From Pseudomonas sp. KU43P (lineage in GTDB: Bacteria; Pseudomonadota; Gammaproteobacteria; Pseudomonadales; Pseudomonadaceae), in NCBI RefSeq assembly GCF_033095865.1, contig NZ_AP019365.1, positions 3,879,501 to 3,943,500 of the forward strand: a DNA stretch of 64,000 nt, read 5' to 3'. Under the pieces are notes generated by a model. That model ran no database searches and was not told where the DNA came from. It saw nothing but the letters and a program-made list of their open reading frames with translations. Position numbers and translations under genes: made by a program. How positions within the stretch are numbered: position 1 is the first letter of the stretch; every line of letters starts with the position of its first letter. Below are positions 4,467-62,027 of the stretch, piece by piece.

Positions 4467-6524
<2,058 letters not shown>

Positions 6525-45427: not shown

Positions 45428-45462
45428 TCTAGGGTGCTCGCCTGAGCGTTTTTGGCGTCTTT

Positions 45463-45687: not shown

Positions 45688-45758
45688 ACGGCCACCCACA
45701 CTTCCTCGCCGTACCCCTTCCAGCCATTACGCAATCGCTACCGCAAACAGCCGCGATA

Positions 45759-47120: not shown

Positions 47121-47301
47121 GGCTCTTCAGGCTAATGAAGATCGTTGATGGCCGCCATGATAGCAAAAGTGTGTCAGAGCGTGAACGCTCATTACAAAAC
47201 TTTGCGGAATCAGCACTTGAGAATCAATCTCGTTTCACCTACTCTGGTTCCGCATCAAGGACGATGCCCCCACCCCTACCCTCTTGAGCAAGGAGCTGTC
47301 C

Positions 47302-47817
47302 ATGAGCCGCCTGCTGCTGCCCCTTGAGCACCCTACGCCCACTGCCGAGCACGATGCCGAACGCGCACTGCTGCATGGCCTCAAGCGCTTGCCACGGCGT
47401 GTACAGCAAGTGTTCCTGCTCAATCGACTCGATAACCTCGACTTCGCCAACATCGCCGCACGCCTCGAGCTGCCCTTGCTGAGCATCGAGCGGCACATGA
47501 ATCAGGCCCTGCAAACCACCCGCCCTCGCGCAGATGCGCTGGCCGACGTTGCCGCGCAATGGTATGTGCGCCTGCAAAGCCCGGAGGCTACTTCCTGCGA
47601 GCGCATCGATTTCCGCCGTTGGCTGGATGCCAACCCGGCGCACCTGCAGGCATTCCATGACACTGAACTGCGCTGGCGCAGCCTGCTCGCACCGGCGCGT
47701 GAGCTGGGACAGGATGGCTGGTACCGGCAAGGGCGTGCGGCGATTTCGTTGGGTGGGTGTTCGGTTGCTGTCGGGCTGGGTGTGGCTGCGTTTTTACTGT
47801 TTGGTTACTGGGTTTGA
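47302..47817 (+). CDS. Sigma-region-4 / FecR-N-terminal (DUF4880) fusion with C-terminal membrane helix
   Basis: The 171-aa product joins three parts. Residues about 18-66 look like region 4 of an ECF sigma factor (LPRRVQQVFLLNRLDNLDFA, then LSIERHMNQAL). Residues about 85-135 match the N-terminal DUF4880 segment of FecR anti-sigma regulators (WYVRLQSPEATSCERIDFRR, WLDANPAHLQAF). A C-terminal hydrophobic helix ends FLLFGYWV. No sigma region 2 and no FecR periplasmic domain are present. The start ATG 47302 has AAGGAG. It is immediately downstream of the PrrF RNA, so an iron link is plausible. Confidence 0.8.
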   Translation: MSRLLLPLEHPTPTAEHDAERALLHGLKRLPRRVQQVFLLNRLDNLDFANIAARLELPLLSIERHMNQALQTTRPRADALADVAAQWYVRLQSPEATSCERIDFRRWLDANPAHLQAFHDTELRWRSLLAPARELGQDGWYRQGRAAISLGGCSVAVGLGVAAFLLFGYWV

Positions 47818-47848
47818 CATTGATGGTCGGCTGCTGTGAAAGATTTCA

Positions 47849-48057
47849 GTACGGCTGCAAAGCCCCGAGGTGACCTCCTGCGAACGCATCGATTTTCGCC
47901 GCTGGCTGGATGCTGACCCTGCACACCTGCAGGCACTCCATGACACCGAGTTGCGCTGGCGCAGCCTGCTTGCACCGGCCCGTGAACTGGGGCGCGATAG
48001 CTGGTATCGGCAAGGGCGTGCGGCGATTTCGTTGGGTGGGTGTTCGGTTGCGGGTGG
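47849..48057 (+). pseudogene. Partial tandem duplicate of the DUF4880 segment
   Basis: About 205 bases repeat 47566-47767 at roughly 85-90 percent identity, offset by 283 bases. The copy starts at the VRLQSPE motif, has a TGA a few codons upstream and no start or ribosome site, then diverges after SLGGCSVA. It is a fragment. Confidence 0.85.
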
Positions 48058-48158
48058 GTTTGACTATAGTTTCGCTGATTGCGCTTTATGTTAGTGCTTG
48101 AGCGCTATTGCTCTATAGCCTTACTCCACGTCACTGATCATTGCTCAATCACCGACGC

Positions 48159-48723
48159 TTAGTTAATAGCATCCGGTGCATTTACAGCGCAACGAACCGT
48201 TTTATCCAGAAGATATGCCTTGGCCTTGCCCAACATTCCGCTATGCCTCATAGCACTAGGGCTAGCATATCTGCGCTGAACGTTAACACCGCCGCCCCAC
48301 AAAGGTTGTGCCTGACTATTCCCACGCAACACCTTCGCATATTCATAATTCGTTTTTTCATCTTTGTACATCGGAATTTCTGGACCTTGAGGATCTAGAT
48401 ACACAGACCGTCGATAATATTCCGGATCATACCAATCTTTAACCCATTCATAGCCATCATCCGACATTGAGTACAAGCCAAGTGGATTGGGGGGATAACA
48501 ATTAACTGGCATGGGAGTTATATCTGTTGTCGTTAACCCCATGCTGATTGAAAATTCTTCCCTATCGTCCAAACTTGAAATATTAACCCCCCTCACTCTA
48601 AGCCCTCCATTTTCATCCGCCTCCCTAGTAAATCTGTAAGTCCCATCATCCGTCGCCACCATAAAAAATTTGCCCCTACTTCGGGCAGCATATTCCCACT
48701 GAGCCTCTGTCGGGAGCGCAAAT
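48159..48723 (-). pseudogene. SUMF1-family lipoprotein gene, 3' half (split by insertion)
   Basis: This encodes the C-terminal part of a formylglycine-generating-enzyme-like (SUMF1/FGE-sulfatase) domain: FALPTEAQWEYAARSRG, NPLGLYSMSDDGYEWVKDWY, and a final KTVRCAV. The 5' half is at 59880-60358. Joining the halves after removing the insertion and one target copy gives 1044 bases, 347 codons plus stop, with the join reading ITDLPFALPTEAQW. The apparent longer frame into the element end is artificial. Confidence 0.93.
48719..48723. repeat. Target-site duplication, left copy (CAAAT)
   Basis: CAAAT flanks the element on the left; the same five bases flank it at 59875-59879. The length fits IS21-family insertions, which often duplicate 4-8 bp. 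Confidence 0.88.
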
Positions 48724-48793
48724 TGAGTAATTGCATGGACTTGACCACCCATTTGCATTCGACTTGACCAGCCATTTGCATCGGATGTGACCA
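48724..48793. repeat. Left end of the IS21-type element with internal repeats
   Basis: After the terminal 12 bases, two copies of CTTGACCA-N-CCATTTGCAT and a shorter TGTGACCA follow at about 22-bp spacing. IS21-family ends typically carry several such transposase-binding repeats. Confidence 0.85.
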
Positions 48794-48849
48794 GCGCACG
48801 GGTACGTCTTGACCGGCAGAAATCGACCCAAAGCTGCCTTACGCGGCAG

Positions 48850-49260
48850 CTAGTGCCCATGCTTATGTTTATGTTTATGATTGTGTTTGTGGCTATGGCC
48901 ATCATCGTTGGCCAAACTGTTGCCAACTGCACCTCCCGCCGCCCCTCCGAGTCCTGCGCCGATCAAGCCACCAGTAGAACCGCCAACGCTGCTTCCAATC
49001 ACTTGACCGCCCACAGCCCCAAGCCCTCCTCCAATAGCTGACTCTGTCTTGTTGCCGTGTTTGGCTGTCATTGCGCCACCGGCTGCACCACCGATACCTG
49101 CGCCGATTGCGGCACCTGTGCTGCCACCTACGGCCTGGCCTGCAACACTTCCGAGGGCTCCGCCAAGCCCTCCGCCAATAGCCGTATTCGTTGTTTCATC
49201 GGCGAAAGCGTAAAGAGATGCAAAAAGACTAAACGCAACGACACACAATGACTTACGCAT
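48850..49260 (-). CDS. Secreted glycine-zipper protein with His-rich tail
   Basis: The 136-aa protein has a signal peptide (cleavage near YAFA-DE), then two blocks of glycine-zipper repeats (AIGGGLGGALGSVAGQAVGG, AAIGAGIGGAAGGAM and a second similar set). It ends in a tail of about 14 residues alternating His and Lys (after DDGHSH). Glycine zippers in envelope proteins associate with membranes or form pores; the His tail may bind metal. The start ATG 49260 has GGAGG upstream. It lies near the left end of the element, divergent from the sulfatase gene. Confidence 0.82.
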   Translation of the reverse strand: MRKSLCVVAFSLFASLYAFADETTNTAIGGGLGGALGSVAGQAVGGSTGAAIGAGIGGAAGGAMTAKHGNKTESAIGGGLGAVGGQVIGSSVGGSTGGLIGAGLGGAAGGAVGNSLANDDGHSHKHNHKHKHKHGH

Positions 49261-49577
49261 CGGACAGACCTCCGAAAATTCATGAGAGAAGTAAAGTCTG
49301 TGGCGCCGATATGATCGGGTCAAGGTGTAGCCGGTCGCGCCTTAATCTCGATCAATCAATTGACGAAAAAGTCTCCGTCTGTCCAGCAATTATCTGCCTA
49401 GTTAAGCGTTCTGTTCACCTTCAAGGCAGCTGTGGGAGAGGGCTCGCCCGCTGATGGGGGCGCTGCTCATCGCGATTTGGACTAATTCAAATTCCTAGCT
49501 AGCCTGTCTAAGCAGCACGAATCTTTCGCTGGCAGTTGCCGAACCGGTACAGCGCGTCCATTCAAAAGGAGCTTGTA
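49261..49577. promoter_or_regulatory. Divergent region upstream of the alkyl-sulfatase gene, with a foreign-type REP
   Basis: The 317 bases carry promoters for both directions, not precisely placed. At 49430-49460, CTGTGGGAGAGGGCTCGCCC followed by GCTGATGG resembles the REP type of other pseudomonads (GGGCTTGCCCGC core), not the host type in this window. The sulfatase ribosome site AAAAGGAG ends near 49570. Confidence 0.5.
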
Positions 49578-51602
49578 ATGACATTATTCGCGAAACCGTT
49601 CAGCACCTACGGCCGCTCTGTGTCGGCGGGCAGACTCTGGAAACTCAGTTCGACTTTCTTCCTGGCGAGCGCTATTGCCATGGCATCGCAGGCCTGGGCG
49701 GAAGAAAAGGCCAAACCAGCCACAGATGCAACGAAGGCGGCTAACGACGCGCTTCTAAAGGAGCTGCCATTCAACGACAAGACTTCTTTCGAGCTGGCCC
49801 ACAAGGGCTTTATCGCCCCTTTGCCTGCGGAGCCGATCAAGGGCCCCTCCGGCAACATGATCTGGGACCCGGCTAAATATGGTTTCATCAAGGAAGGTAC
49901 AACAGCACCGGCCTCCACCAACCCGAGCTTGTGGCGGCAGTCGCAGCTGATCAATATTTCCGGCCTGTTCGAGGTCACCGACGGTCTTTACCAGGTGCGC
50001 AACTACGACCTGTCAAACATGACCATCGTCGAGGGCAAGGAAGGCATCACCATCATGGACCCGTTGATCTCCTCGGAGACCGCCAAGGCGGCCCTGGAGC
50101 TGTATTTCAAACACCGGCCGAAGAAGCCGGTGGTCGCGGTGATCTACACCCACAGCCACGTCGACCATTATGGCGGGGTGCGCGGCGTGGTAAACGAGGA
50201 CGACGTCAAAGCCGGCAAGGTCAAAATCTACGCGCCCAAAGGCTTCCTCGAACATGCTGTGGCCGAGAACGTCATGGCCGGTACCGCGATGAGCCGTCGT
50301 GCTAGCTATATGTACGGCAACCTGCTACCGCCAAGTGAAACCGGTCAGCTGGGTGCAGGCTTGGGGACCACCACCTCCGCCGGTACCGTGACCCTGATCC
50401 CGCCGACCGACATCATCGAAAAGACCGGTGAGAAGCACGTGATCGACGGCCTGACATACGAGTTCCTCTACGCTCCGGGCAGCGAAGCGCCGGCGGAGAT
50501 GCTCTTTTACATCAAGGAGAAAAAAGCCCTCAACACCGCCGAAGACTCTACCCATACCCTGCACAACACTTACTCGCTGCGTGGCGCGAAGATTCGCGAA
50601 CCGCTGCCGTGGTCCAAGTACCTCAACGAAACCTTGAAGCTGTGGGGTGATGACGTACAGGTGATGTACGCCATGCACCATTGGCCGGTCTGGGGCAACA
50701 AGGAAGTAAAAGAACAGCTGTCGTCGCAACGCGACATGTACCGCTACATCAACGACGAAACCCTGCGCTTGGCCAACAAGGGTTACACCATGACCGAGAT
50801 CGCCGAGCAGGTAAAACTGCCGCCTTCGATTGCCAACCGCTTCTCCAACCGAGGCTACTACGGTTCGTTAAACCACAACGTCAAGGCCACCTACGTGCTG
50901 CACCTGGGCTGGTTCATCGGTAACCCCGCCACCTTGTGGGAGCTGCCCCCGGATGAACAAGCCAAGCGCTACGTCGACATGATGGGCGGTGCCGACGCTG
51001 TGCTGAAAAAGGCCAAGGAATACTACGACAAGGGTGACTATCGCTGGGTGGCTGAAGTGGTCAACCATGTGGTCTTCGCCGACCCGAGCAATCAGGCGGC
51101 CAAGAACCTGCAAGCCGACACGCTGGAGCAGCTGGGCTACCAGGCCGAGAGTGGCCCATGGCGCAACTTCTACCTCACCGGTGCGCAAGAACTGCGTAAT
51201 GGAGTGCAGAAACTGCCGACACCGGACACCGCCAGCCCCGACACCGTCAAGGCGATGGACCTGGACCTGTTCTTCGACTTCCTGGCCATGCGTCTGAAAG
51301 GGCCTGAGGTGGGCGACAAGCACATCACCTTGAACCTGGACTTCACTGACCTGAAACAGAAGTACACACTGGAAATGGTCAACGGTGTACTCAACCACAC
51401 CGAAGGCATGCAAGCCAAAGACGCCGACGCGACCATCACCCTGACCCGCGACACTTTGAACAACATCATGCTCAAGCAGACCACGCTCAAGGACGCAGTC
51501 AGTAAAGGCGACGTGAAGGTCAACGGCAACGAGGGCAAGCTTGAGGAGTTGATGAGCTACATGGACAACTTCGACTTCTGGTTCCCGATCGTCACACCTT
51601 AA
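49578..51602 (+). CDS. sdsA: Secreted linear/primary alkyl sulfatase (SdsA-type)
   Basis: The 674-aa product has a signal peptide ending near SQAWAE and a metallo-beta-lactamase-type catalytic domain with the zinc motif THSHVDHYGG. A helical dimerisation domain follows, then a C-terminal SCP2-like domain (LNLDFTDLKQKYTLEMVNGV). Such enzymes hydrolyse alkyl sulfates such as SDS to alcohol and sulfate. ATG 49578 has AAAAGGAG eight bases upstream. It is the first of four genes and is followed by a terminator, so the next genes may have their own promoter or be partly read through. No LysR regulator of the SdsB type is seen. Confidence 0.92.
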   Translation: MTLFAKPFSTYGRSVSAGRLWKLSSTFFLASAIAMASQAWAEEKAKPATDATKAANDALLKELPFNDKTSFELAHKGFIAPLPAEPIKGPSGNMIWDPAKYGFIKEGTTAPASTNPSLWRQSQLINISGLFEVTDGLYQVRNYDLSNMTIVEGKEGITIMDPLISSETAKAALELYFKHRPKKPVVAVIYTHSHVDHYGGVRGVVNEDDVKAGKVKIYAPKGFLEHAVAENVMAGTAMSRRASYMYGNLLPPSETGQLGAGLGTTTSAGTVTLIPPTDIIEKTGEKHVIDGLTYEFLYAPGSEAPAEMLFYIKEKKALNTAEDSTHTLHNTYSLRGAKIREPLPWSKYLNETLKLWGDDVQVMYAMHHWPVWGNKEVKEQLSSQRDMYRYINDETLRLANKGYTMTEIAEQVKLPPSIANRFSNRGYYGSLNHNVKATYVLHLGWFIGNPATLWELPPDEQAKRYVDMMGGADAVLKKAKEYYDKGDYRWVAEVVNHVVFADPSNQAAKNLQADTLEQLGYQAESGPWRNFYLTGAQELRNGVQKLPTPDTASPDTVKAMDLDLFFDFLAMRLKGPEVGDKHITLNLDFTDLKQKYTLEMVNGVLNHTEGMQAKDADATITLTRDTLNNIMLKQTTLKDAVSKGDVKVNGNEGKLEELMSYMDNFDFWFPIVTP

Positions 51603-51630
51603 ATGCTCCCTTGACGCAGCTGTGCGTCAG

Positions 51631-51666
51631 GCAGGGCACCGAATAATCGGTGTCCTGCTCTTTTTT
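51631..51666 (+). terminator. Rho-independent terminator after the alkyl-sulfatase gene
   Basis: The stem GCAGGGCACCGA / TCGGTGTCCTGC (one G-U pair) has an ATAA loop and is followed by TCTTTTTT. Confidence 0.88.
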
Positions 51667-51686
51667 AAAGTGTGGAGTAAGGGACT

Positions 51687-52988
51687 ATGACCACGACATT
51701 TCCAGTCAAGCTTGCTAAAAGGTTGGTGCCCGCAACACTGCTTTATTTGTCGCTTCACAGCAGCAATGTGCTGGCCGGCGGCATCTTCATCTATGAAGCC
51801 GGACAGGAAAGCAACGGTTTGGCCAACGCCGGCTCGGCGGCGCTAGCTATGGATCCCAGTGTGCTGATGAGTAACCCCGCCGGCATCGCTCTGCTACCCG
51901 GCACGCAGATCAGCGCCAATGCACAGGTGATCTTCGGAGACATTGGCTTCTCCCGCAGCAGTAACAACCAGTTTGATGGCAACGAAGGCGGCAACGCCTT
52001 GCAGTATTTGCCGGGGGCTAGCCTTTTCATCAGCCATCAAATCGATGAGCGCTCGGCCATCGGTTTCGGTATGTACGGCAACTTCGGTCTGGCCCTGGAC
52101 TATGACGATGACTGGACTGGGCGCTATTTCACCCAAGAGGCAGCAGTAATCGGGGTGTCATTTCAGCCGACATTTGCCTACAGGTTTAGCGACGATCTCT
52201 CTCTAGGCATCGGCCCGCGCATGATGCTCGGTTATTACCGAACCGAGATGGCCATCGACAACAGCCTGTTGGGGCTGGTTGACCGCCCGGACGGCCAGCT
52301 TGAGTACAAGGACACCGACTTCGGCATGGGTGTGAACTTGGGCCTGATGTACCAGCTTAATCCGCGCACGCGCTTGGGCTTTGCCTACACCAGCAAGGTG
52401 AAGTTGGAGTTCGAGGACAGCCCGCACGTCAGCGACATAAACAACCCGATCATCAACGCTGCACTGAACCGCTTGGCCGTGGATACCCTGGAACTGGACA
52501 TGAACGTTCCGCAGACTGCGACCTTCAGCGTGGCCTACCAACTCGATGATCAGTGGACCCTGCTGAGCAGTCTGGACTGGCAGGATTGGAGCGAATTCGG
52601 CGATATAGGCGTGGAGGTGGACGCCAACGCCGCAGACGTCAGCCGCACGGTCGACCGCCAATACAAGGACACCTGGCATGCCTCGGTCGGCGCTCAGTAC
52701 CAGATGAGCAAACAACTGCGTTGGAGCTTCGGCGTGGGCTACGACAGTTCGGCTGTCGATGACAAGGATCGCACTGTCGACAACCCGATGGGGGAAGCCT
52801 GGCGCTTCGCGACCGGGGTGAACTATCAGGTTGAGGAAGGCTTCGACTTGCACATGGCCTACACCTTGGTCTGGCTTGGCGACATGGACGTAGAGCAGAC
52901 CAAAGCGCGCTCCGGCAACTCCCTGTCGGGCAGTTATGACAATGCCGCCCTACACATCGTTGGCGGAGGCGCGACATGGCGCTTCTAA
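51687..52988 (+). CDS. OmpP1/FadL-family outer-membrane channel
   Basis: The 433-aa protein has a signal peptide (to about VLAGG), the FadL hatch/N-terminal pattern GLANAGSAALAMDPSVLMSN (the NPAG segment follows) and a beta-barrel ending ATWRF. FadL-type channels take up hydrophobic molecules such as fatty acids. Next to an alkyl sulfatase it may import the released alcohol or the surfactant. GGAGTAAGG precedes the ATG. Confidence 0.9.
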   Translation: MTTTFPVKLAKRLVPATLLYLSLHSSNVLAGGIFIYEAGQESNGLANAGSAALAMDPSVLMSNPAGIALLPGTQISANAQVIFGDIGFSRSSNNQFDGNEGGNALQYLPGASLFISHQIDERSAIGFGMYGNFGLALDYDDDWTGRYFTQEAAVIGVSFQPTFAYRFSDDLSLGIGPRMMLGYYRTEMAIDNSLLGLVDRPDGQLEYKDTDFGMGVNLGLMYQLNPRTRLGFAYTSKVKLEFEDSPHVSDINNPIINAALNRLAVDTLELDMNVPQTATFSVAYQLDDQWTLLSSLDWQDWSEFGDIGVEVDANAADVSRTVDRQYKDTWHASVGAQYQMSKQLRWSFGVGYDSSAVDDKDRTVDNPMGEAWRFATGVNYQVEEGFDLHMAYTLVWLGDMDVEQTKARSGNSLSGSYDNAALHIVGGGATWRF

Positions 52989-53032
52989 ATGATTGTGTGC
53001 TGAATACCATATAAAGCAAAAGGAGAAGCGGT

Positions 53033-53701
53033 ATGAAGAGCAAATCGTTGGTTGCAACAGTGTGCCTCGCATCACTGCTGCTGCATGGCTGCGCAAGCAA
53101 GTACGTCGAGCCGGACCAGTATTCGGGCTTTCTGAAAGACTACAGCAAACTCAAGGAGGACAAATCGTCATCGGGCGCGGCGGTCATGCGATGGATCAAA
53201 CCAGGAATTGATACCAACCAGTTCAGCAGTGTGTATGTCGAGCCCAGCCAGTTCTATCCCAAGCCACAGCCAACTGAAAAGATCCCGCAACAGACGCTGA
53301 CAGGGATCACCCAGTACTACGATCAGGCGTTGAAAACCCAGTTCTCCAAAGCCCTGCCTTTGGCCACCAGCCCAGGACCGGGGGTGCTGGTGGTGCGCCC
53401 GGCAATCACTGGGGTAAGCGCCAAGACCAAGGGCCTACGTCCTTATGAAGTGATTCCGATTGCGCTGGTTGCTGCGGGCATCAGCACGGCCACCGGTATC
53501 CGCGACCAGGACACCAGCGTTGCGACCGAGGCTGCATTCATTGATGGTCGCTCCAATGAAGTCGTCGCCGAGGTGGTACGCAAAGGCGCCGGTACCGACC
53601 TTGAAAACTCCTCGCAAGTGATGCAGGCGAAGGATGCTCGCGTGGTGCTTGATGGTTGGGCGAGAGACATGGTTAATGCATTCCAGGCGCTGAAGAAATA
53701 A
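53033..53701 (+). CDS. DUF3313 family lipoprotein
   Basis: The 222-aa protein has a lipoprotein signal (lipobox LLHGC, Cys near residue 20). The mature part shows the DUF3313 pattern: FLKDYSKLKEDKS, YVEPSQFYPKPQ, and VLVVRPAITGVSAKTKGLRP. Its role is unknown. The ATG follows AAAAGGAGAAG. It begins 44 bases after the FadL-like gene. Confidence 0.86.
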   Translation: MKSKSLVATVCLASLLLHGCASKYVEPDQYSGFLKDYSKLKEDKSSSGAAVMRWIKPGIDTNQFSSVYVEPSQFYPKPQPTEKIPQQTLTGITQYYDQALKTQFSKALPLATSPGPGVLVVRPAITGVSAKTKGLRPYEVIPIALVAAGISTATGIRDQDTSVATEAAFIDGRSNEVVAEVVRKGAGTDLENSSQVMQAKDARVVLDGWARDMVNAFQALKK

Positions 53702-53708
53702 CTCTTAT

Positions 53709-53741
53709 GTCCTCCTGGTGTGCTGGCCGCGGCAGGAGGAC
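53709..53741. other. Intergenic hairpin
   Basis: Arms GTCCTCCTG and CAGGAGGAC pair perfectly, with a GC-rich loop. There is no T tract, so it may be an mRNA processing or pausing structure and not a terminator. Confidence 0.45.
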
Positions 53742-53796
53742 TTAGAGGCTTTGAGTAGATTTCAAGTGAGAGGCTTCACTTACTGGAGGGGCGACA

Positions 53797-54327
53797 ATGA
53801 ATACCGTGTTGCTAAAGCTCAAACATGAATTCATGAAGGTGCTTCCCCCGACCCTATTCTTTTTTGTGATCCTGCACATCGTGGCGCTGATTCGTGCACT
53901 GATGATCAAGGGCTCAGGGGTCGAGTTGCCTGTTTCAGCTTCCGTGCTGATCGCGTCCATGGTCCTTGGCAAGTCAGTACTCGTTGCTGACATGCTGCCG
54001 TTCATCAATCGATTTCCCGACAAGCCGCTGATCTGGAACGTCGCCTGGAAAACCGCAATGTATGCCTTGGTAGCCCTGATCGTTCACTATCTGGAGCGAC
54101 TGTACGATTACTGGAAAGAGTCGCCCGGGTTTGTGGATGCCAATGCTTTGTTATGGTCGTCGATGAACTGGCCGCGCTTCTGGGCGATTCAGATCCTGTT
54201 GATCACCCTGATCTTCATGTACTGCGTCATCGCAGAGTTGGCACGAGTAATTGGTCGTGATCGACTGAAAGTGATGTTCATCGGCCCACTGCCGCCAAAA
54301 ACTGCGGAACCCACGGAAGGTGCCTGA
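53797..54327 (+). CDS. Hypothetical integral membrane protein
   Basis: The 176-aa protein has about four hydrophobic segments (VLPPTLFFFVILHIVALIRA, ASVLIASMVLGKSVLVADML, MYALVALIVHYLERL and IQILLITLIFMYCVIAELAR). It ends with a charged tail containing LPPKTAEPTEGA. The ATG has GGAGGGG upstream. No catalytic motif is recognised. It is the last gene of the sulfatase module. Confidence 0.75.
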   Translation: MNTVLLKLKHEFMKVLPPTLFFFVILHIVALIRALMIKGSGVELPVSASVLIASMVLGKSVLVADMLPFINRFPDKPLIWNVAWKTAMYALVALIVHYLERLYDYWKESPGFVDANALLWSSMNWPRFWAIQILLITLIFMYCVIAELARVIGRDRLKVMFIGPLPPKTAEPTEGA

Positions 54328-54534
54328 GGGGCAGACACTGGTTCAGGTGGATTCTTTGGGTCATGCTCGAACGTCCGCAAGGGTCGAAGGCGGTCATTCG
54401 CGACTGGCCGCTGTCGACCCATAGCAGGCACTCACGAGGTTGGCCTGATGGCTCAATCTGATGGCGGCTCGCCTGGGATTGGCCGTTGCGCTCCACTTTG
54501 GCGGGTAGCAAGACATAGCGCAATTCTCAAGTTA

Positions 54535-54786
54535 TTAATCTTTGACGGAGCAGTCCACCCGTAAGAAGGGGAAAAGCTCGTTTGGATCACTGCATTCACC
54601 GTTCAACTGCTCACAGGCGGCTTCTGCGAGCGACCTCATGAAATAACTCGGCTTCAATCGTAATTTTTCCTGATTGTCGTAAATATCGAAGCCACCGGAC
54701 ACGGTAGTTGCATAGTACCGAGAACCAGACTGGAAGCATTCTTTGTCGACCGGCACAGCCGGAACGATAACGAATCTCTTTTGCAT
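54535..54786 (-). CDS. Small hypothetical protein (83 aa)
   Basis: Starting at ATG 54786, which has GGGAGG upstream, the product is 83 aa. It begins MQKRFVIVPAVP, contains YYATTVSGGFDIYDNQ and RSLAEAACEQLNG, and ends with VDCSVKD. No signal peptide or known domain is recognised. The longer frame to 54852 has no ribosome site. Confidence 0.6.
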   Translation of the reverse strand: MQKRFVIVPAVPVDKECFQSGSRYYATTVSGGFDIYDNQEKLRLKPSYFMRSLAEAACEQLNGECSDPNELFPFLRVDCSVKD

Positions 54787-54871
54787 GGCTCGTACCTCCC
54801 CAGGCAGATCACTTAGTAATAGCCTCTGATTGAAAGGCGCCAGATGACTCATCGAGACGAATCAGTGACGT

Positions 54872-55104
54872 TTGGTGTCCGCGAGGTTTCACTATCACAA
54901 TAGGTGGCGCCGGATAAGGTGCGGGTTTGTCTATGATCGTGCGGGAGCCGGGGCCGTCAAGGCTTTGATATCATTGACGATCTGCGCCGGTTCCCTTGGC
55001 AACAGACACTTCAAAATGATCTCCAGCGGTCTATCTAACCGCTCTACCTTGAGGGCGGCACATTGGTATGGTTGGCCTACAGGGCTACGGCTATCAGTTC
55101 CCGC
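54872..55104. other. Unresolved stretch between small hypothetical gene and IS1182 remnant
   Basis: No gene can be supported. The minus strand has a short open run (VERLDRPLEIILKCLLPREP then AQIVNDIKAL) that looks protein-like but lacks a start; it may be another transposon fragment. Confidence 0.3.
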
Positions 55105-55249
55105 GCGCGAAGCGGAGCGCGCTCAGGTCGAGTTCGTCGACGAAGACGTCGACCACGCGCACTGGGTTTTCATCGGTAACGTATTCGTCCAGGCACTCAG
55201 GCAGCAGTGTAACTTGCGTCCGAGCCTAGCCCTCGATGAATCGCTTCAT
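55105..55249 (-). pseudogene. Remnant of an IS1182-type transposase N-terminus
   Basis: On the minus strand ATG 55249 begins MKRFIEG, then TAG, then RTQVTLLPECLDEYVTDENP, VRVVDVFVDELDL. This is the opening of IS1182-family transposases (usually MKRFIEGEDRTQVTLLP). The match ends after about 48 codons. The in-frame stop and truncation make it a fossil inside the larger element. Confidence 0.7.
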
Positions 55250-55433
55250 GATTGCCCCCACCACGATCTCTACGATCAGAAGGTTAGACAATCGCAGGCG
55301 TTCTCACACAGCCTGGACCGAGAGCTGCCGGCCCCTCATTCTTGGGCTTAGGATATCCCCAATGCCCCAATAGTCGAGGAGAGTGGCTGCTTGAGCTATC
55401 GTATTCAGACCGTCTCAGCTTTAAGGCCATCTG

Positions 55434-55643
55434 ATGAGGATCGACAAGACAACGCAACTGATCAGCACCCGCAGTGAAGAAAACGCAAACCTGCTACTCC
55501 GGGCCGGATCGACGCTGTTACTCGTAGCTGACCGCCAGGAAGATGCTCATCAGTGGCTGCATTACCAATTCGGGTGGCAGCGCACGGGTGAACCTCCTGA
55601 GATCACGTTTACCGGCGTCGAGGGTGGCCCCGATCCATTCTGA
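55434..55643 (+). CDS. Small hypothetical protein (69 aa)
   Basis: The 69-residue product begins MRIDKTTQLISTRSEENANL, continues LLRAGSTLLLVADRQEDAHQ and ends GGPDPF. AAGG lies eight bases before the ATG. The sequence has normal composition and codon phase and could be a pseudomonad orphan. No known domain is recognised. Confidence 0.5.
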   Translation: MRIDKTTQLISTRSEENANLLLRAGSTLLLVADRQEDAHQWLHYQFGWQRTGEPPEITFTGVEGGPDPF

Positions 55644-55723
55644 CAGCGTCGCGTCAGTGGCGTTGGCAACCCAAAATGCTTGAGCCCTCATGGAAAGCGG
55701 AAAAAGTGCTCTGAATTCAAACG

Positions 55724-55784
55724 ATTGCATTGCACTTGACCACCTGTTTGCATTCGACGTGACCAATTGCATTCGTGGTGACCA
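55724..55784. repeat. Internal, diverged copy of the IS21-type left end
   Basis: ATTGCAT is followed by CACTTGACCACCTGTTTGCA and two further TGACCA...TTGCAT units, in the same orientation as the outer left end but clearly diverged. It lies directly downstream of istB, where the natural left end of the insertion sequence would be. Confidence 0.75.
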
Positions 55785-55806
55785 TCCTTGGCGCGAGGCA
55801 GATCCT

Positions 55807-56553
55807 TCAAGCGCGGCGGCGGCTTTTTACCCTACGCATTGATTCACCCTTCAACTCGATGACGTGGGATTTGTGAACGATCCTGTCGAGAATCGCGTCC
55901 GCGATTGTGGGGTCGGAAAACAAGTCATACCATTTTTCCTTCGGATACTGGCTAGTGATCAGCAATGAACCGTTTTGTGACTGCTGATCGATGACGTCTA
56001 GTAGAAAAGGGCCGAGCTGGGCATCGATACCGCCAATGCCCAAGTCATCAATGATCAGCAGCTCGGCGCGAATCAATTGCCGGCGTAGCTTCGGCATGGT
56101 GTGGTCAGCGTAAGACAGGGAGATTTCTTCGAAGAGCTTGGTCGCGGTGCGATAAAGCGTGGGTCGCCCAAGTCGGCAGGCTTGGTTCGCCAAGGCACAA
56201 GCCAGCCAGGTTTTTCCGGTGCCGGTCGCCCCTGTGATGATCACGTTTTGGTGGCGTGTCAGCCAGTCGCACTCTCCGAGAGACATCACGGTATTTCGGT
56301 CTAGACCACGGGATGCTTTGAATTCAATCGTGTCCATTGTGGCCTCGCTTTCACGAAGCCTTGCAGCTTTCAACAAACGCGCAATCTTCCTGCTTTCTCG
56401 TTCGCTGTTTTCGGCGTCAACCATCAATCCGAGCCTTGTGTCGAACGCCTCTTTCAACAATGCCGGGGTTTCCAGCTGACGCTCGTAAGCCACTGCCATG
56501 CCGTGCAGCCCAAGGCTCAGCAAATTCTGAACAGTGTTGAATACTGGTTTCAT
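55807..56553 (-). CDS. istB: IS21-family helper ATPase IstB
   Basis: The 248-aa AAA+ protein related to DnaC has Walker A ITGATGTGKTWLA and Walker B LLIIDDLG. IstB regulates IstA transposase and target choice. Its start overlaps the istA stop by four bases (ATGA), as usual in this family. The length is normal and no stops interrupt it, so the element may still be active. Confidence 0.95.
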   Translation of the reverse strand: MKPVFNTVQNLLSLGLHGMAVAYERQLETPALLKEAFDTRLGLMVDAENSERESRKIARLLKAARLRESEATMDTIEFKASRGLDRNTVMSLGECDWLTRHQNVIITGATGTGKTWLACALANQACRLGRPTLYRTATKLFEEISLSYADHTMPKLRRQLIRAELLIIDDLGIGGIDAQLGPFLLDVIDQQSQNGSLLITSQYPKEKWYDLFSDPTIADAILDRIVHKSHVIELKGESMRRVKSRRRA

Positions 56554-58100
56554 AGCGGCTCATCTCCTTGTGTGGCGTAATATTCCGCGCCACGAATGTT
56601 GGCGTGTTCGACCAAGGGGGCGGATCGTTGGAAGCTGGGCCGCAGATCGGACTCGTTACGAATGATTGCCCGCAGGCGCTCTGAACTTAGGATTTTCAGG
56701 CTATTGGCATACGCGCAGGCTGATTCCAGCCGGGAGGGTGAGATGTCCCCCTTGCGGACATCTCGCTTCAAGCCTATGACTGCCTTCATGCCAGTCGCAA
56801 AGTCTCGGCGCAGAGTGAGATTGTCTTTCACGTACCGCAACGTCTCCTGGCCTATAGTTTCAGCCCAAGCCATCAGTGCGTCTGGTTGCGAGTCTTGGAA
56901 CTGGCTGTGGTTAGGGGCCAGGTGTTCATTCAGGGTGCTAGTTCCACGATTCCGGCTGAGCTTGTGAGTGCTGATGACGCGGCGTTGGTAGACAATATCG
57001 AGCCAATCGTCACGCATACGAAGATCGACGAGCAGGTTCGCAAAGTGGTAAGGGACTGAGTAGCTGTGCTGTTCAAACTCGACGTGGTAGTCAGCGCCCA
57101 CGCGAACCTGATAGACCCACTGACTGTAGCTGTACCGCTGGTCGGGAAGAGGGCCAAGCGCGGGGTAGTCCAGTTCAAGATAACGGCTGGCCCTACTCTT
57201 GGGGTACGTCCTAGTGACGCGGTTGTTGAGCTGATCGACCCAGAATTCGATCTGCTCATTCAGCTCTTGCAACGAGAAAAATGTCCTCGCCCTCAGCCTT
57301 GCGAGCACAAACCGCTGCACGATCTGGACAGCAATTTCACCTAGCGATTTGTCCTTGGGTTTGCGAGGCCTAGCAGGAAATATCTGAAATCCGTAGTGCT
57401 CGGAGAGCTCGGAGTAAGCACGGTTCAGAACGACCTGATCCCGAGTGTTTTTCGTGATCGCCGATTTCAAATTGTCGGGGACAATGAAGCGTGGAACCCC
57501 GTCAAAATACTCAAGCGCCAGCACGTTACACCTGAGCCAGTTGGGTGTCGTCTGATTGTCCACTGCCGTGGCGAATATGTAGCCGGAAGCTCCTAGCGTG
57601 GCTACGAATACCTGAGCCTGGGCAATTTCTCCTGTGTCCGGGTTTGTCACAGGCATAGTCCGTCCGCAGAAGTCCACGAAGCACTTGTCACCGGGAAGGT
57701 GGATCTGCCTCATGCTTAGCTTTTGTTTATTCAGCCACTCACGATAAACCCTCGTAAATTGGGCGTATGAGGGGCCATCTGGCTCCGTTTCCCGAAACTC
57801 TTGCCAAAGCAATTCAAGGGTGATGTCAGGCAGTTTCAGCTGTTCGTGAATGGCGACCCAAGGGGGGTACACTTTTCTCTGCGCTGTGGGCCTGGGCTGA
57901 GTATGTAGGCATTCCGCAAGCGCTTTATCGTCGAGATGTCGCAGCTGTTCCCAAGTTTGTCCGCACAGCGTCAACTGATCGCGAATCGTGCGAACGGTAT
58001 TATGGGAAACCTTAGCCAGGCGACCGATTGATCTGTTCGACAAACTGGCGTCGCAAGCGAGACGCAGTACCTCGCGCTGCGTTTGTACTGGCAGCCTCAT
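56550..58100 (-). CDS. istA: IS21-family transposase IstA
   Basis: From ATG 58100 (GAGGAGGACAC before it) the product is 516 aa. It has an N-terminal helix-turn-helix (LSNRSIGRLAKVSHNTVRTI) and an rve DDE core with CFVDFCGRTM, FIVPDNLKSA and the Glu in DKSLGEIAVQ. It cuts and joins the element ends. The frame continues upstream to 58244 without a start signal. The gene is intact. Confidence 0.95.
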   Translation of the reverse strand: MRLPVQTQREVLRLACDASLSNRSIGRLAKVSHNTVRTIRDQLTLCGQTWEQLRHLDDKALAECLHTQPRPTAQRKVYPPWVAIHEQLKLPDITLELLWQEFRETEPDGPSYAQFTRVYREWLNKQKLSMRQIHLPGDKCFVDFCGRTMPVTNPDTGEIAQAQVFVATLGASGYIFATAVDNQTTPNWLRCNVLALEYFDGVPRFIVPDNLKSAITKNTRDQVVLNRAYSELSEHYGFQIFPARPRKPKDKSLGEIAVQIVQRFVLARLRARTFFSLQELNEQIEFWVDQLNNRVTRTYPKSRASRYLELDYPALGPLPDQRYSYSQWVYQVRVGADYHVEFEQHSYSVPYHFANLLVDLRMRDDWLDIVYQRRVISTHKLSRNRGTSTLNEHLAPNHSQFQDSQPDALMAWAETIGQETLRYVKDNLTLRRDFATGMKAVIGLKRDVRKGDISPSRLESACAYANSLKILSSERLRAIIRNESDLRPSFQRSAPLVEHANIRGAEYYATQGDEPL

Positions 58101-58241
58101 GTGTCCTCCTCGCGACAGGCGTGCCAAAGCCTCACCGGTCGCACCGTGTGAATATTGCAGACAAACGGAAGGTGGCCGACTTGACGTCGAACGCGAGGGA
58201 ACACAGAATGGTGGTGCGTAGGGCTCAAAACCTAACACCAT

Positions 58242-58276
58242 CAAAAAAGCCTAGGGCTCCACCCCTGGGCTTTTTT
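58242..58276. terminator. Bidirectional terminator upstream of istA
   Basis: AAAAAAGCCTAGGGC-(TCCA)-CCCCTGGGCTTTTTT forms a strong GC stem with A and T tracts on both sides. It lies between the 87-aa ORF (58340-58603) and istA and would limit read-through into the transposase from outside. Confidence 0.82.
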
Positions 58277-58339
58277 GTGTCCCAACTCTACCGGCTAACT
58301 CTTAGCCTGGGCTCATTGTGAAACTCCTATCTGTTTGAT

Positions 58340-58603
58340 TTACACGGCTTGCTGTCTAGCGCAGCGTTGCGTGGCTATCCAGCAGGCGACTTCTTTGGAC
58401 AGGGCGAAAAAGCCTCGACGATTGGGCACTTCAAAAAGCGGAACTTCGATAGTTCCACGCTGCTTGGCTTTTCGGAACGCGTCATACGAGGCGTATCCCA
58501 ACTCTCTCCACAGCGCACTGCCACCCACCATCAGGCCATATCGATCTTTGAGATCAAGCTCTAGTTCGGATGCCAGGTTGTGGATTTCAAGAGGCTCGCG
58601 CAT
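58340..58603 (-). CDS. Small putative DNA-binding protein (87 aa)
   Basis: The 87-residue product has LKDRYGLMVGGSALWRELGY, ASYDAFRKAKQRG and RRGFFALSKEVACWIATQR, a layout like small winged-helix/excisionase-like regulators (a helix-turn-helix reading LGY-S-AFR). No strong ribosome site is seen before ATG 58603. It may control the divergent gene at 58716 or the transposition genes. The assignment is by pattern only. Confidence 0.55.
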   Translation of the reverse strand: MREPLEIHNLASELELDLKDRYGLMVGGSALWRELGYASYDAFRKAKQRGTIEVPLFEVPNRRGFFALSKEVACWIATQRCARQQAV

Positions 58604-58715
58604 CGCACTTAATGTCCGGTTTGGTCACAGCTAATAGTAATAAACCACGTTCTTGCACTCCAGCCGTAAGGCGCCTACATTTTTTACGGTACAAACATCA
58701 GCTGGAAATTTGTAA

Positions 58716-59756
58716 GTGTCTGACTTCAAACGAATTGCGAAAATTTACTCGGATTTCGCAGATAACGTGCGCGAACAAATACCGGAAAATACAAACCCCC
58801 GCAGTAACACTGTGGAAATGCTCGCCGTGGGCTATTGGTTCGAGGGGCTGAGGCAGCGGACAGGTCTCAAAACGGCCTACGCGCTTGAACAGTATTTCGA
58901 AGAGGATTCGTTTCGAAGGAACAGCAATGGGACTATTCGGCATTACCGAAGCAAGTGGTCAAGGTACGAACAAAAAATGGTATCGCCCAAGGCCAATACC
59001 TTGGCTAAGGTCGAGCTTCAGGCACCGGGATCTTCTCGCGATCTGAATCATCCGCTATGGACACTGCTCAAGCTGAGGATCAAGCGAGAGGACGTCGACT
59101 TCGACCAGTTTTTTGGAACGTTGAATGCCGAAGTACAGGGTGTGTTGTTCCGAACCGCCAGCGACATGGCGTGGGGCATTTTACAGCGCGAATCGGTCAC
59201 TCAAAACCTGCTCGAAAAGCTTGAGCGCAGGGCGAGCTTAGATAGCCTCGCGGCGGTGGTAGCCATAGTGATGGAAGCAGATCAGATGGGCCGTCGTGCC
59301 CTTGCTATCAAAGCAGCAGATTCGTTGCACAAAGTGCTCTTAATGCTCGCCATGGAGCTACAAGCACGTGGGGTCGCAGTGGGCTTGATTGACTGGCTAG
59401 TCCTCAATGTGCTCCCCCTTGGTGTGCCTGCACACTTAGAGGTTTGGATGACTAGCACTGACTACATTCACGCGTCAGCCCATCTGAACACCATGGTCTT
59501 CCAGCATCCGGAACGACGCGGAAAGAGCCTTCCCTGGAAGCTACGCACCAGACTGATGTGCAAGCTTCTGGCCGGCGATATGGGAGTGGACGTAATGCAC
59601 GCTATGCGTCCGCAGTTCGCTCTGCGAGCCGACATCGGCGAAATCGCAAGCGATTTAGTGAACGAGTTCAACAAGACGTCAGCACTCAGAGTCTGGGGCT
59701 GGATGTGCATCATTGATGGCACGCCTCAGGTGGTGCCGCCCACATCGCTTTTATAG
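58716..59756 (+). CDS. Unrecognised protein next to IS21 genes (346 aa)
   Basis: From GTG 58716 the product is 346 aa, soluble and largely helical. Segments include MLAVGYWFEGLRQRTGLKTA, HYRSKWSRYEQKMVSP, VVAIVMEADQMGRRALAIKA and DLVNEFNKTSALRVWGWMC. No catalytic motif is recognised. The ribosome site is weak (GGAAATTTG). It lies between istA and the right end of the element, so it travels with the insertion sequence. It could be a regulator or an accessory protein of transposition. Confidence 0.6.
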   Translation: MSDFKRIAKIYSDFADNVREQIPENTNPRSNTVEMLAVGYWFEGLRQRTGLKTAYALEQYFEEDSFRRNSNGTIRHYRSKWSRYEQKMVSPKANTLAKVELQAPGSSRDLNHPLWTLLKLRIKREDVDFDQFFGTLNAEVQGVLFRTASDMAWGILQRESVTQNLLEKLERRASLDSLAAVVAIVMEADQMGRRALAIKAADSLHKVLLMLAMELQARGVAVGLIDWLVLNVLPLGVPAHLEVWMTSTDYIHASAHLNTMVFQHPERRGKSLPWKLRTRLMCKLLAGDMGVDVMHAMRPQFALRADIGEIASDLVNEFNKTSALRVWGWMCIIDGTPQVVPPTSLL

Positions 59757-59780
59757 CTCTCCGTTACTGCGTACCTTGAG

Positions 59781-59874
59781 TGGTCACATCCAATGCAAAT
59801 GGCTGGTCAAGTCGAATGCAAATGGGTGGTCAAGTGCGATGCAAACGCTTGGTCAATTCAGGTGCAATTTCCCA
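59781..59874. repeat. Right end of the IS21-type element with internal repeats
   Basis: Read inward on the minus strand, the end starts TGGGAAATTGCACC and is followed by four TGACCA...TTGCAT-type units at about 22-bp spacing, one more than the left end. Two units are identical over 20 bases to the left end. Confidence 0.85.
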
Positions 59875-59879
59875 CAAAT
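59875..59879. repeat. Target-site duplication, right copy (CAAAT)
   Basis: Identical to 48719-48723; the host sequence GGCAAATCGG continues beyond it. Confidence 0.88.
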
Positions 59880-60358
59880 GGCAAATCGGTAATAGCTGCA
59901 AGCCAGGCGCAGTACTTTTCAGCCTCATACCAATCCAAATGAGCCGGCGTGATAGGAAGGCGATTGAAATCATCCCAATACTTTGTGGCGCCAACATATG
60001 GTCTAAGCGTTAGTCCGTTGTATTTCAAATACAACCCAAACGACTCATTATCAACCTTGTATTTTTGAATTGAAAAATTTGACAATTCAACTTCATGCAA
60101 AGGCTTGCTATCACTATTGGCATCATAGGGTAAACGCTCCGGACCAAACCTCACGCCGTAGTCCCCCATCCAAAATTTTCCTCCCGTCACGAAAACCAAG
60201 TCCCCCTTGACCTTTGAAACAAAGGTGTCCAGTTCATCGACATTCGCCGTCGCTTGCTCTGCCTCAGGTGCCCTATCCGCTGGCTTGCATGCACTCAGAA
60301 GATTAAACCCCAGAGATATCACAAACACTCTTACGCTTATAATTACAGACGCTCTCAT
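59880..60358 (-). pseudogene. SUMF1-family lipoprotein gene, 5' half (split by insertion)
   Basis: The start ATG 60358 has GGAGGG four to five bases before it. The signal ends in the lipobox LLSAC. The mature part has the SUMF1 opening LVFVTGGKFWMGDYG, LHEVELSNFSIQKYKV and WYEAEKYCAWLAAI, and breaks at ITDLPF where the element enters. The 3' half is at 48159-48723. As it stands, translation would run into the element end for about five more residues and stop. Confidence 0.93.
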
Positions 60359-60666
60359 ACCACCCTCCAAGCGAGATGATCACGACCATTTAGAACATAA
60401 TAATAAGTATTATTCATCGCCATCGCGTACCCCCGCGCCGGCCTCAACTTGAGTCGACTCTTTATCGCAATCAATTCACGTCTCGCCCTATAAAGATCTT
60501 CATCTCGATTGAAGCCAATGCGTAGAAAGCCCACCAAAAACCGTTGCTGGCGTTCAGATACAGACCGTTCATTGTCATCGCCTGCCATGCTTTCGCAATT
60601 GACTTTTGGCTTGTGCCCGCGAAAGAGACAGCCTACTGATGTCAGATTATTTTGTCTGTCGGACAC
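60355..60666 (-). CDS. Hypothetical protein overlapping the SUMF1 lipoprotein start
   Basis: The product is 103 aa from GTG 60666, or about 77 aa from ATG 60588. It is basic and helical (RQQRFLVGFLRIGFNRDEDL, YRARRELIAIKSRLKL) and ends NNTYYYVLNGRDHLAWRVV. Its TGA overlaps the lipoprotein ATG, which suggests translational coupling with the now-split gene. It has no ribosome site of quality and could be the 3' remnant of a longer gene. Function is unknown. Confidence 0.5.
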   Translation of the reverse strand: MSDRQNNLTSVGCLFRGHKPKVNCESMAGDDNERSVSERQQRFLVGFLRIGFNRDEDLYRARRELIAIKSRLKLRPARGYAMAMNNTYYYVLNGRDHLAWRVV

Positions 60667-60873
60667 GTCTAAAAATTCTCAACCAGCGCATCCAGGCACA
60701 AGTAGAGGATCGTCATGCGATAAATTTCAATCACACAAAGTGTTTACAAAAGCTTGTAGGAAACAGACTACAGAATCATACCTCAGACTTTAACTTACAC
60801 AAACAAAACAGGTGTACTATTCACGAGGTGATATTGAGGGCTCATGCGTCTGAAAGCATCCGCATGCTGAGGA
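60667..60873. other. AT-rich gap between SagB-type gene and hypothetical gene
   Basis: There is no supported gene. It holds only very short frames and no clear terminator. Confidence 0.4.
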
Positions 60874-61890
60874 TCAACCACAAGCCACCCACTGGGTGTA
60901 CAACACCCCCACAACAAAATGAACTTGCTCGCGATCGCTATTCAACCCTAACAAAGGTTCTATATCCTTTTCACAGAGTGCACCTGTCAACCAAGTACCC
61001 AACCCAAAAGAAGCACTCATAATCTGAAACGTCTGCGCAATATGCCCAACCTCCAACAAGGCATTACGATAAGCGCGTGAATGCTCATGTTTCCACCACA
61101 GCTTATCAACCCTGGACGTAAAGAAAACACCCACCGGAACAGCATCGGCAAAGTGCTGCCCTGACAGCAGTCGCCCTACCGGAGGTGTCTTTGAAGAGGT
61201 TAGAATCAACTGATGATTAAAAGGATTGTAGTAATACAACCCTACCTCTAACCCTTCAACATTTCTGACCAGAACATAACCTTCAGTTGAATTCAGGCCG
61301 CCACCAGACGGGCTGCAGCGTCGTTTTCTAAGCGCATCCGGCAAACCACCTGATTCAGGAATCTGACGTTCCTCCACAAACCCGAGCGTGTATTCTAGAA
61401 TCTGGGCGAGCATTTCCAGACCCAGTGGAATATTAAGAAATTCTCTGGCAGTCGAGCGAGCCAGCAACACTTGTTCAACTGGGCCCCTCCGATGCTGGCG
61501 GGGCAAAGTAATGCCTTCTTTACAGAAGCTCACTGCAGTTTCTATTGGCACCTCCTTACTCCACACTTCTTCGCAGTGCGCCAAGTAAGATTTCGCCCAC
61601 TCCCCCTCATTTTCAGGACTGTCGTCAAAGGGGATATTTTTCGTACCAAAGTGGTAAATCCTAGACAGGATGTCACGCCCCCAGACTGCTGACTCTTCGC
61701 CTCCGACCCCCACTATTCCGGCTCGCACCAAGTCCTTATCAAGCGGATTTTCTAGATCCAAACAACACTCATTAGCCGCCAGGGAAACCAAGCGGTGTGC
61801 GTGAGCCAGAGACAACTCATACTGCTTATGCCTTTGAAAGGCCTCACACACCAGAGATGAACCAACAACAATAAAAAAAACAATTTTCAC
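60874..61890 (-). CDS. SagB-type flavin (nitroreductase-fold) dehydrogenase
   Basis: The 338-aa product has a C-terminal SagB/ThcOx-type nitroreductase domain: LLARSTAREFLNIPL, SPSGGGLNSTEGYVLVRNVE, GLEVGLYYYNPFNHQL, and FGLGTWLTGAL near the end. Before it is an N-terminal extension with SRIYHFGTKNIPFD, the equivalent of the YH-type motif of SagB proteins. Such enzymes use FMN and often oxidise residues in ribosomal peptides. The listed start is GTG 61890; GGAGG is 12 bases before it. An eight-T run follows the start. The gene is AT-rich compared with its neighbours. Confidence 0.85.
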   Translation of the reverse strand: MKIVFFIVVGSSLVCEAFQRHKQYELSLAHAHRLVSLAANECCLDLENPLDKDLVRAGIVGVGGEESAVWGRDILSRIYHFGTKNIPFDDSPENEGEWAKSYLAHCEEVWSKEVPIETAVSFCKEGITLPRQHRRGPVEQVLLARSTAREFLNIPLGLEMLAQILEYTLGFVEERQIPESGGLPDALRKRRCSPSGGGLNSTEGYVLVRNVEGLEVGLYYYNPFNHQLILTSSKTPPVGRLLSGQHFADAVPVGVFFTSRVDKLWWKHEHSRAYRNALLEVGHIAQTFQIMSASFGLGTWLTGALCEKDIEPLLGLNSDREQVHFVVGVLYTQWVACG

Positions 61891-61958
61891 TGATCACAGA
61901 CACCTCCAGCATAGCCAAGCATAGGCCGGCACTGTGCTTGGCACTAACTACCGAACGT

Positions 61959-62027
61959 TTACTTGGCCTTCACAACCAGATGAGCCAAATTGGCCAGTTT
62001 TTTCGACTCCATTTTCACTTCTTTCAT
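61959..62027 (-). CDS. Candidate precursor peptide, 22 residues
   Basis: ATG 62027 is preceded by GGAGAAG with ideal spacing and the frame ends at TAA 61959. The peptide begins MKEVKMESKK, ends LVVKAK, and has six Lys, one Ser, one Asn and one His but no Cys or Thr. It sits 68 bases upstream of the SagB-type gene in the same direction. By analogy with tiny precursor genes of modified peptides it may be the enzyme's substrate; a leader peptide or spurious frame are the alternatives. Confidence 0.6.
   Translation of the reverse strand: MKEVKMESKKLANLAHLVVKAK

Follow-up and report, generated by a model that had tools for sequence, protein, structure and literature searches.

How did an 11-kb block of DNA with an IS21-type transposase gene pair come to lie inside a lipoprotein gene of Pseudomonas sp. 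KU43P, and what kind of element is it? The locus lies in a stretch of 64,000 nucleotides of this genome (NZ_AP019365.1, positions 3,879,501 to 3,943,500), which is called the window here and to whose first letter all positions refer unless another sequence is named. The genome belongs to the genus Pseudomonas and consists of 5.87 Mb in a single contig. The element in the window was very probably a unit transposon moved by an IS21-type transposase pair. The finding extends beyond this single case to a family of IS21-type units of 7 to 25 kb, whose cargo varies (detergent use, metal and fluoride resistance, phage defence).

Insertion site and structure of the unit

The inserted unit (48724–59874, 11,151 bp) was located within a minus-strand gene for a lipoprotein with a SUMF1/FGE domain, which was left in two pieces (60358–59880 and 48723–48159):

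48159–48723, minus strand: C-terminal part of the host gene, SUMF1/FGE domain (Pfam PF03781)
48719–48723, no strand: CAAAT, left copy of the target-site repeat
59875–59879, no strand: CAAAT, right copy of the target-site repeat
59880–60358, minus strand: N-terminal part of the host gene (Pfam PF03781)

The first-pass annotation had described an IS21-type transposon of about 11.15 kb that splits a SUMF1 lipoprotein gene, and this was exact to the base between the two CAAAT copies. Its claim that removal of the element restores the frame also held: the flanks joined with a single CAAAT gave 1044 bases, or 347 codons with one terminal stop, and the join read ITDLPFALPTEAQW. Intact homologues of 344–394 residues were present in G050, G065, G420 and G235 (G numbers denote genomes and L numbers loci of our comparison). 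One homologue in G050 (L122) has ITDLPFALPTEAQWEYAARSRG where the join falls, with the same residues there.

The ends and the conserved part of the unit comprised the following features:

48724–48834, plus strand: left (L) end, about 75–115 bp, terminus TGAGTAATTGCA, repeats at 48738 and 48761 (repeat scan)
55434–55643, plus strand: sORF, the 69-residue open reading frame (ORF) of the core, found in 10 of the 12 delimited units
55733–55753, plus strand: internal repeat between sORF and istB, motif kept, terminal TG absent (repeat scan)
55807–56553, minus strand: istB, helper ATPase (NCBIfam NF038214 above cut-off; PDB 8q3w, E 8e-27; GATGTGKT)
56550–58100, minus strand: istA, IS21 transposase (NCBIfam NF033546 above cut-off; PDB 8q4d, E 1.5e-20)
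58340–58603, minus strand: p87, conserved accessory gene, no family match
58716–59756, plus strand: p346, conserved accessory gene, divergent from p87 and istA, no family match
59779–59874, minus strand: right (R) end, terminus TGGGAAATTGCA, repeats at 59839, 59816 and 59793 (repeat scan)

Read from right to left, the conserved core (55.43–59.87 kb) was arranged in the order of R end, p346 (346 residues), p87 (87 residues), istA, istB, internal repeat and 69-residue ORF. Since p346, p87, this ORF and the internal repeat belong to the core besides istAB, the passenger DNA proper was about 48.83–55.43 kb. The TG...CA termini, the agreement of 10 of 12 terminal bases (TGAGTAATTGCA and TGGGAAATTGCA) and the several repeats at the ends, all reported in the first-pass annotation, were found again. 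The repeats were spaced by 23 bp at both ends, with two copies on the left and three on the right, and the internal repeat at 55733, which had not been singled out before, was a single copy. The DDE residues of IstA could be aligned (D147, D213 and E259 in a 520-residue frame), the Walker A motif of IstB was in place, and both proteins matched the solved proteins of IS5376. The istB gene overlapped the 3′ end of istA, and the genome contained one istA copy.

The IS21-type machinery was represented by IstA with DDE residues, the AAA+ helper IstB, TG...CA ends with multiple repeats and a 5-bp target repeat. An insertion sequence in the strict sense holds only its own transposition genes, and here cargo genes were present. 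The organization was not that of a composite transposon either, with a single istA in the genome and only an end on the left side. The unit would work in the manner of an IS21 element, yet it is no insertion sequence in the strict sense.

Units of the same type in other genomes

IS21-like IstA proteins (E ≤ 1e-50) were detected in 46 of 298 genus genomes, five of which carried the window type at no less than 68% identity: G000 (the window's own genome), G037, G070, G115 and G136 (split over contigs). A fragment of window-type IstA (82%) was found in G143. A scan of GTDB contigs yielded 12 Pseudomonas loci, two of them from one P. poae strain, and one distant locus, and a plasmid collection added two more units. 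The outer-end pattern, by which the far ends were located, matched in 11 of 12 genomes, and its reversed control matched in none of the 12.

Twelve units, including that of the window, could be delimited, with sizes of 8,708–25,161 bp. The units of P. poae and Irchel 3E13, whose ends lay at contig edges or were duplicated, were left out of the counts, as were those of L188, L189 and L190 and the outer ends of plasmid Rms149. All 12 contained istA, istB, p87 and p346. The internal repeat was clear in 11 and weak in P. schmalbachii, and it had no terminal TG in the units inspected. The window's unit and other units had 76–126 bp of the L end in common. Units with near-identical cores were alike for about 100–115 bp from the L end and then diverged immediately, and more distant pairs shared 69–113 bp of it. 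The conserved core and an L end of about 75–115 bp bounded units of 8.7–25.2 kb with differing cargo. The first-pass annotation had also considered relatives carrying the same 11 kb without matching ends; no such case was seen among the relatives examined.

Direct repeats, copies at different sites and empty sites

Of the 17 end pairs considered as candidates, 14 were flanked by direct repeats of 5–7 bp: nine pairs had 5 bp, four had 6 bp and one had 7 bp. In a mixed-flank control with 15 pairs (the 12 delimited units plus L165, L166 and L187, with L172 and L186 outside), none of the 210 combinations of left and right flanks from different units shared 4 bp or more. The flank repeats were beyond chance, because 14 of the 15 true pairs shared 5–7 bp.

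Two P. gingeri genomes contained the same 21,887-bp unit, 100% identical, at different sites, between GGGCC copies in one and CGCCT copies in the other. The P. mandelii chromosome and plasmid pD4A46 had 10.7 kb of core and cargo in common (99.75%), also at different sites. Three sites were found empty in related DNA. The site of the unit in G9001 (P. gingeri) was empty in A8002, with a single CGCCT; the left flank was 84% identical over 600 bp, and the right flank matched only over 35 bp (97%). The pD4A46 site was empty in pCAR1 and pND6-1, with a single GGAACC and flanks 97.8–99.5% identical over 600 bp, and that of the ES4326 plasmid was empty in pPAL8-03 and a KBS0707 plasmid, with a single CTAAGC and flanks 92.5–99.1% identical over 217–442 bp. 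A search in G9001 for the site of the A8002 unit gave partial matches only (67–82%). Units of this type lay between 5–7 bp direct repeats where related DNA has a single copy. From these comparisons, the window's unit appears to belong to a recently active family of cargo-carrying unit transposons with IS21 machinery.

These results bear on another explanation, in which a compact IS21 element (55.4–59.9 kb) lies beside unrelated passenger DNA, and the far left end and the CAAAT match are a coincidence or an old second insertion. There is indeed a repeat copy immediately next to istB (55733), at the point where a compact element would stop, and solo ends occur elsewhere, for example near 4,049 kb of the same genome. 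However, in the inspected units the internal copy has no terminal TG, the outer ends are the ones flanked by repeats in 14 of 17 pairs, and each of the three empty sites covers the unit in full. This explanation is strongly disfavoured by the empty site in pCAR1 and by the P. gingeri pair, and we regard it as very unlikely.

Several points weigh against movement of the whole unit. No empty allele of the exact window site was found in the genus genomes searched. Direct repeats were absent in three end pairs (P. graminis, L172 and L186). The boundaries were first chosen by a scan that permitted several TG/CA choices, the repeat of the ES4326 plasmid unit can be read as 6 or 8 bp, and several of the 14 repeat-flanked units are close relatives. 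In addition, the donor of the window's cargo is uncertain, and unit movement is inferred from sequence alone. Even so, a unit transposon remained the best explanation for the window element.

Cargo of the family

The cargo scans of the other units covered selected proteins rather than all ORFs. In P. gingeri the Gabija proteins GajA (E 6e-246) and GajB (E 8e-211) were found in the cargo, along with a pair that matched PDC-M71, a candidate system, and with CrcB, a CLC channel, enolase, pyrophosphatase and a Mutator-type transposase. The pD4A46 cargo encoded an ApeA-type HEPN protein and matches to PDC-S73 and PDC-S46. The latter two were common to P. mandelii (the 99.75% DNA identity given above), which additionally carried asparagine synthase, M20 peptidase and transporters. 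A GajA/GajB-like pair was found in P. viridiflava together with ArsB and other arsenic-type genes, and ArsB, NicO, HupE and a sulfatase in ICMP 561. The P. graminis cargo comprised a fluoride-type block with DNA similarity to P. gingeri, CydAB, SLAC1, molybdopterin oxidoreductase and cytochrome oxidase; that of P. agarici QueH, MTHFR, MesX, cobalamin-independent methionine synthase and CbtA; and that of P. schmalbachii an ArsR-type regulator, an SBF-family transporter and GAPDH. The ES4326 plasmid unit carried a CAP12-type TIR protein according to Pfam, which was below the cut-off of the NCBIfam Cap12 models.

The cargo lay mostly in the interval between the L end and the core. In P. schmalbachii and in plasmid pNY8709-IMP, which held a further unit of 11,547 bp, the interval between p346 and the R end was the one occupied, and in P. 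viridiflava cargo stood on both sides of the core. P. khavaziana and P. mandelii had cargo blocks in common whose order was inverted, and the same held for P. gingeri and P. graminis.

Two shorter units in G235 and G139 (8,055 and 7,169 bp) had both ends, a direct repeat and a piece of p346, with no match to istA or istB between their ends; they look like deletion derivatives. The solo end of the KU43P genome (4,049,010–4,049,090; L041:9012–9078) had three repeats together with the inner left-end sequence, and no partner was present within the 38 kb read. Other solo ends occurred in L167, L168, L110 and L047. In L186, a P. frederiksbergensis plasmid, the ends (5265–5403 and 20324–20485) contained seven and eight repeats compared with the usual two to four. 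They enclosed Hcp, VgrG and RHS genes, and p346 was broken by an IS5 element.

Origin of the cargo in the window

The passenger DNA of the window's unit had the following contents:

48823–54420, plus strand: stretch shared with G000:C1 at about 801.1–806.7 kb, 93.25% identical
48850–49323, minus strand: glycine-zipper protein (Pfam PF13488, PF13441)
49536–51602, plus strand: alkylsulfatase (Pfam Alkyl_sulf_dimr, Alkyl_sulf_C, Lactamase_B), presumably SdsA1-like
51687–52988, plus strand: FadL/TodX-type outer-membrane transporter (Pfam PF03349)
53033–53701, plus strand: DUF3313 protein (Pfam PF11769)
53797–54327, plus strand: 176-residue protein, no family match; second-locus copy 97% identical

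The identity with the second alkylsulfatase locus of the same genome extended over 5,601 alignment columns, and the end scan found no transposon ends at that locus. The stretch in the window began directly inside the L end, and a repeat resembling repetitive extragenic palindromic (REP) sequences lay at its right border. It looks like a captured stretch of host DNA. Its nearest relatives among the 298 genomes were G278 and the second copy in the same genome, which tied at 94%. The second locus (799–815 kb of the KU43P genome, L042) was 100% identical over 19,001 bp to G278:C6 (L169). The DNA flanking the insertion region on both sides was 89–90% identical to G278, which argues that the second locus was itself recently exchanged.

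How such cargo entered the units is a separate matter. Rather than being captured under the action of IstA, it may have been inserted or swapped into an existing unit of core and ends through recombination, homologous or illegitimate, or through the action of other mobile elements. The inverted blocks of shared cargo, the Mutator-type transposase in P. gingeri, the occurrence of cargo on either side of the core and the REP-like repeat at the right border in the window all fit this explanation. On the other side, the captured stretch in the window and the differences between related units both start directly inside the L end. We give recombination an about even chance. It conflicts only with capture in one step and not with movement of the whole unit.

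In the relative G278, about 130 bp stood in place of 14.5 kb of the window (47819–62321), a stretch that holds a SagB-type dehydrogenase in addition to the lipoprotein gene and the transposon. The N-terminal half of the lipoprotein matched in 5 of 397 other genus genomes at E ≤ 1e-20 (45–54% identical). Among a set of 57 genomes, the gene was present only in the KU43P genome and, as matches of 30–37%, in two others, with no close orthologue. Positions 45430–45720 held a repeat that occurs dozens of times in G278 on both strands (76–93% identity), perhaps a REP-like element or one resembling miniature inverted-repeat transposable elements. The end of the gene at 47284–47817 was apparently duplicated just downstream and has diverged (47560–47760 and 47850–48050, judged by eye).

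The accessory genes p346 and p87

Neither p346 nor p87 had a Pfam or NCBIfam match at E ≤ 0.001. At the same threshold p346 had 72 relatives, and those with a species name were Pseudomonas. It was found in 12 of the 298 genus genomes, several times as fragments, including all five with a full window-type IstA. In the plasmid collection, 17 records matched p346, and the hosts also included Citrobacter, Serratia, Xanthomonas, Acinetobacter, Comamonas, Azospira and Thauera. Thirteen of these records were read; istA and istB adjoined p346/p87 in 11 of them and were not beside p346 in the Serratia and Acinetobacter records. They also adjoined p346 in an additional P. aeruginosa plasmid. The AlphaFold model of p346 was confident, with a mean predicted local distance difference test score (pLDDT) of 90, and a fold comparison with the PDB and viral libraries yielded nothing at E ≤ 0.001. 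Residues 32–112 showed a weak resemblance to DNA-binding domains of Rgg/ComR-type regulators, which hints that p346 may bind DNA. Our guess is that p346 and p87 might regulate or assist transposition.

In G138 (L163, 9542–16614), relatives of p346 and p87 were located beside a run of tyrosine-recombinase-like genes (model matches below cut-off) without istA. That suggested the pair is not tied to IS21 chemistry alone. The same arrangement would suit a genomic island or another integrative element (tyrosine recombinase or Tn7-like) that carries istAB as cargo. We consider this extremely unlikely for the window's unit, because what stays constant from unit to unit, whatever the cargo, is istAB with the spaced repeats. 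Moreover, no TnsA, TniQ or integrase was present among the proteins scanned in the unit, which covered part of the small ORFs.

A single origin of the association with p346 was not supported by the IstA tree, on which the p346 label needs three changes. L187, with istA in two pieces, was excluded from this tree, and L189 and L190 formed long branches. The rows that fell among the p346-bearing ones were L013–L015, with another divergent gene of 303–344 residues, and L191, where no p346 was seen in 16 kb of sequence. Among 25 other IS21 loci (L013–L037), 24 had no p346 match and L028 one weak match. Another IS21 group (L158, L159 and L013) had a different divergent gene of 303–344 residues without an NCBIfam match upstream of istA, and at least 4.6 kb of it was 99.98% identical between two genomes.

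Proposed mechanism and significance

We propose that IstA would bind the spaced repeats and pair the R end with the distant L end, and that IstA and IstB would then insert the complete unit with low target specificity. The internal copy of the repeat, next to istB, probably cannot be cut, because its motif is kept and the terminal TG is absent; it may represent an earlier end or serve in regulation. As the L end is so short, new DNA could settle between it and the core, which would account for a stretch like the host's alkylsulfatase locus turning into cargo.

A wider and more doubtful idea is that IS21 machinery gave rise to widespread large cargo transposons in beta- and gammaproteobacteria, with p346/p87 as a new transposition accessory. 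The pair might act in target choice, or might silence the inner end and so leave the distant one for use, comparable to the role of the unrelated Tn7 selector proteins.

Should IS21 machinery also produce unit transposons as large as 25 kb, part of the istAB annotations would mark a single border of cargo elements that have gone unrecognised and by which phage-defence, metal, fluoride and catabolic genes pass from chromosomes to conjugative plasmids and back. They would offer a second AAA+-controlled system beside Tn7 for studying how a transposase bridges distant ends, with p346 and p87 as two conserved proteins open to functional tests.

Comparison with known systems

Ordinary IS21 elements are about 2.5 kb long, contain no cargo and are treated as compact insertion sequences, and IS21 is a model for transposition under the control of an AAA+ helper. 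The repeated compact IS21 copies in four genus genomes shared 2,575–2,649 bp and had spaced repeats at both ends as well. Thus multi-repeat ends are ordinary; what sets the window-type units apart is their size and cargo, p346/p87 and the internal repeat. IstA with DDE residues, IstB, multi-repeat ends and short direct repeats are common to the IS21 family, including IS5376, the compact Pseudomonas copies and ISPve1/ISPkr1 of Paracoccus. The IS21 elements in PMC3281130 measure 2469–2503 bp with direct repeats of 7–8 bp. In comparison with IS21 insertion sequences, the window-type units are 3–10 times longer and have cargo, p346, p87, the sORF and the internal repeat.

Plasmid Rms149 of P. aeruginosa, reportedly described by Haines in 2005, shares the order p346, p87, istA, istB, an end adjoining istB and other genes beyond p346. 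However, its IstA is 61% and its p346 44% identical. A literature search recognised no account of IS21 units with such cargo, and an earlier description, including one for Rms149, is possible.

Segments between paired insertion sequences also combine IS21 machinery with genes carried along. Plasmid pJBCL41 has a 16.8-kb segment between two ISPst3 copies (PMC6713103), and cytochrome P460 genes are flanked by two IS21 elements elsewhere (PMC8649781). In contrast, the window's unit is bounded by a single copy of istAB together with a short L end that brings no transposase.

There is further resemblance to Tn7-like transposons. These are likewise large units whose variable cargo includes defence systems, and they have an AAA+ helper and multi-repeat ends (compare PMC8649781). 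The difference is in the machinery: the transposase and helper of the window's unit are IstA and IstB, and TnsA and TniQ were not among the proteins scanned.

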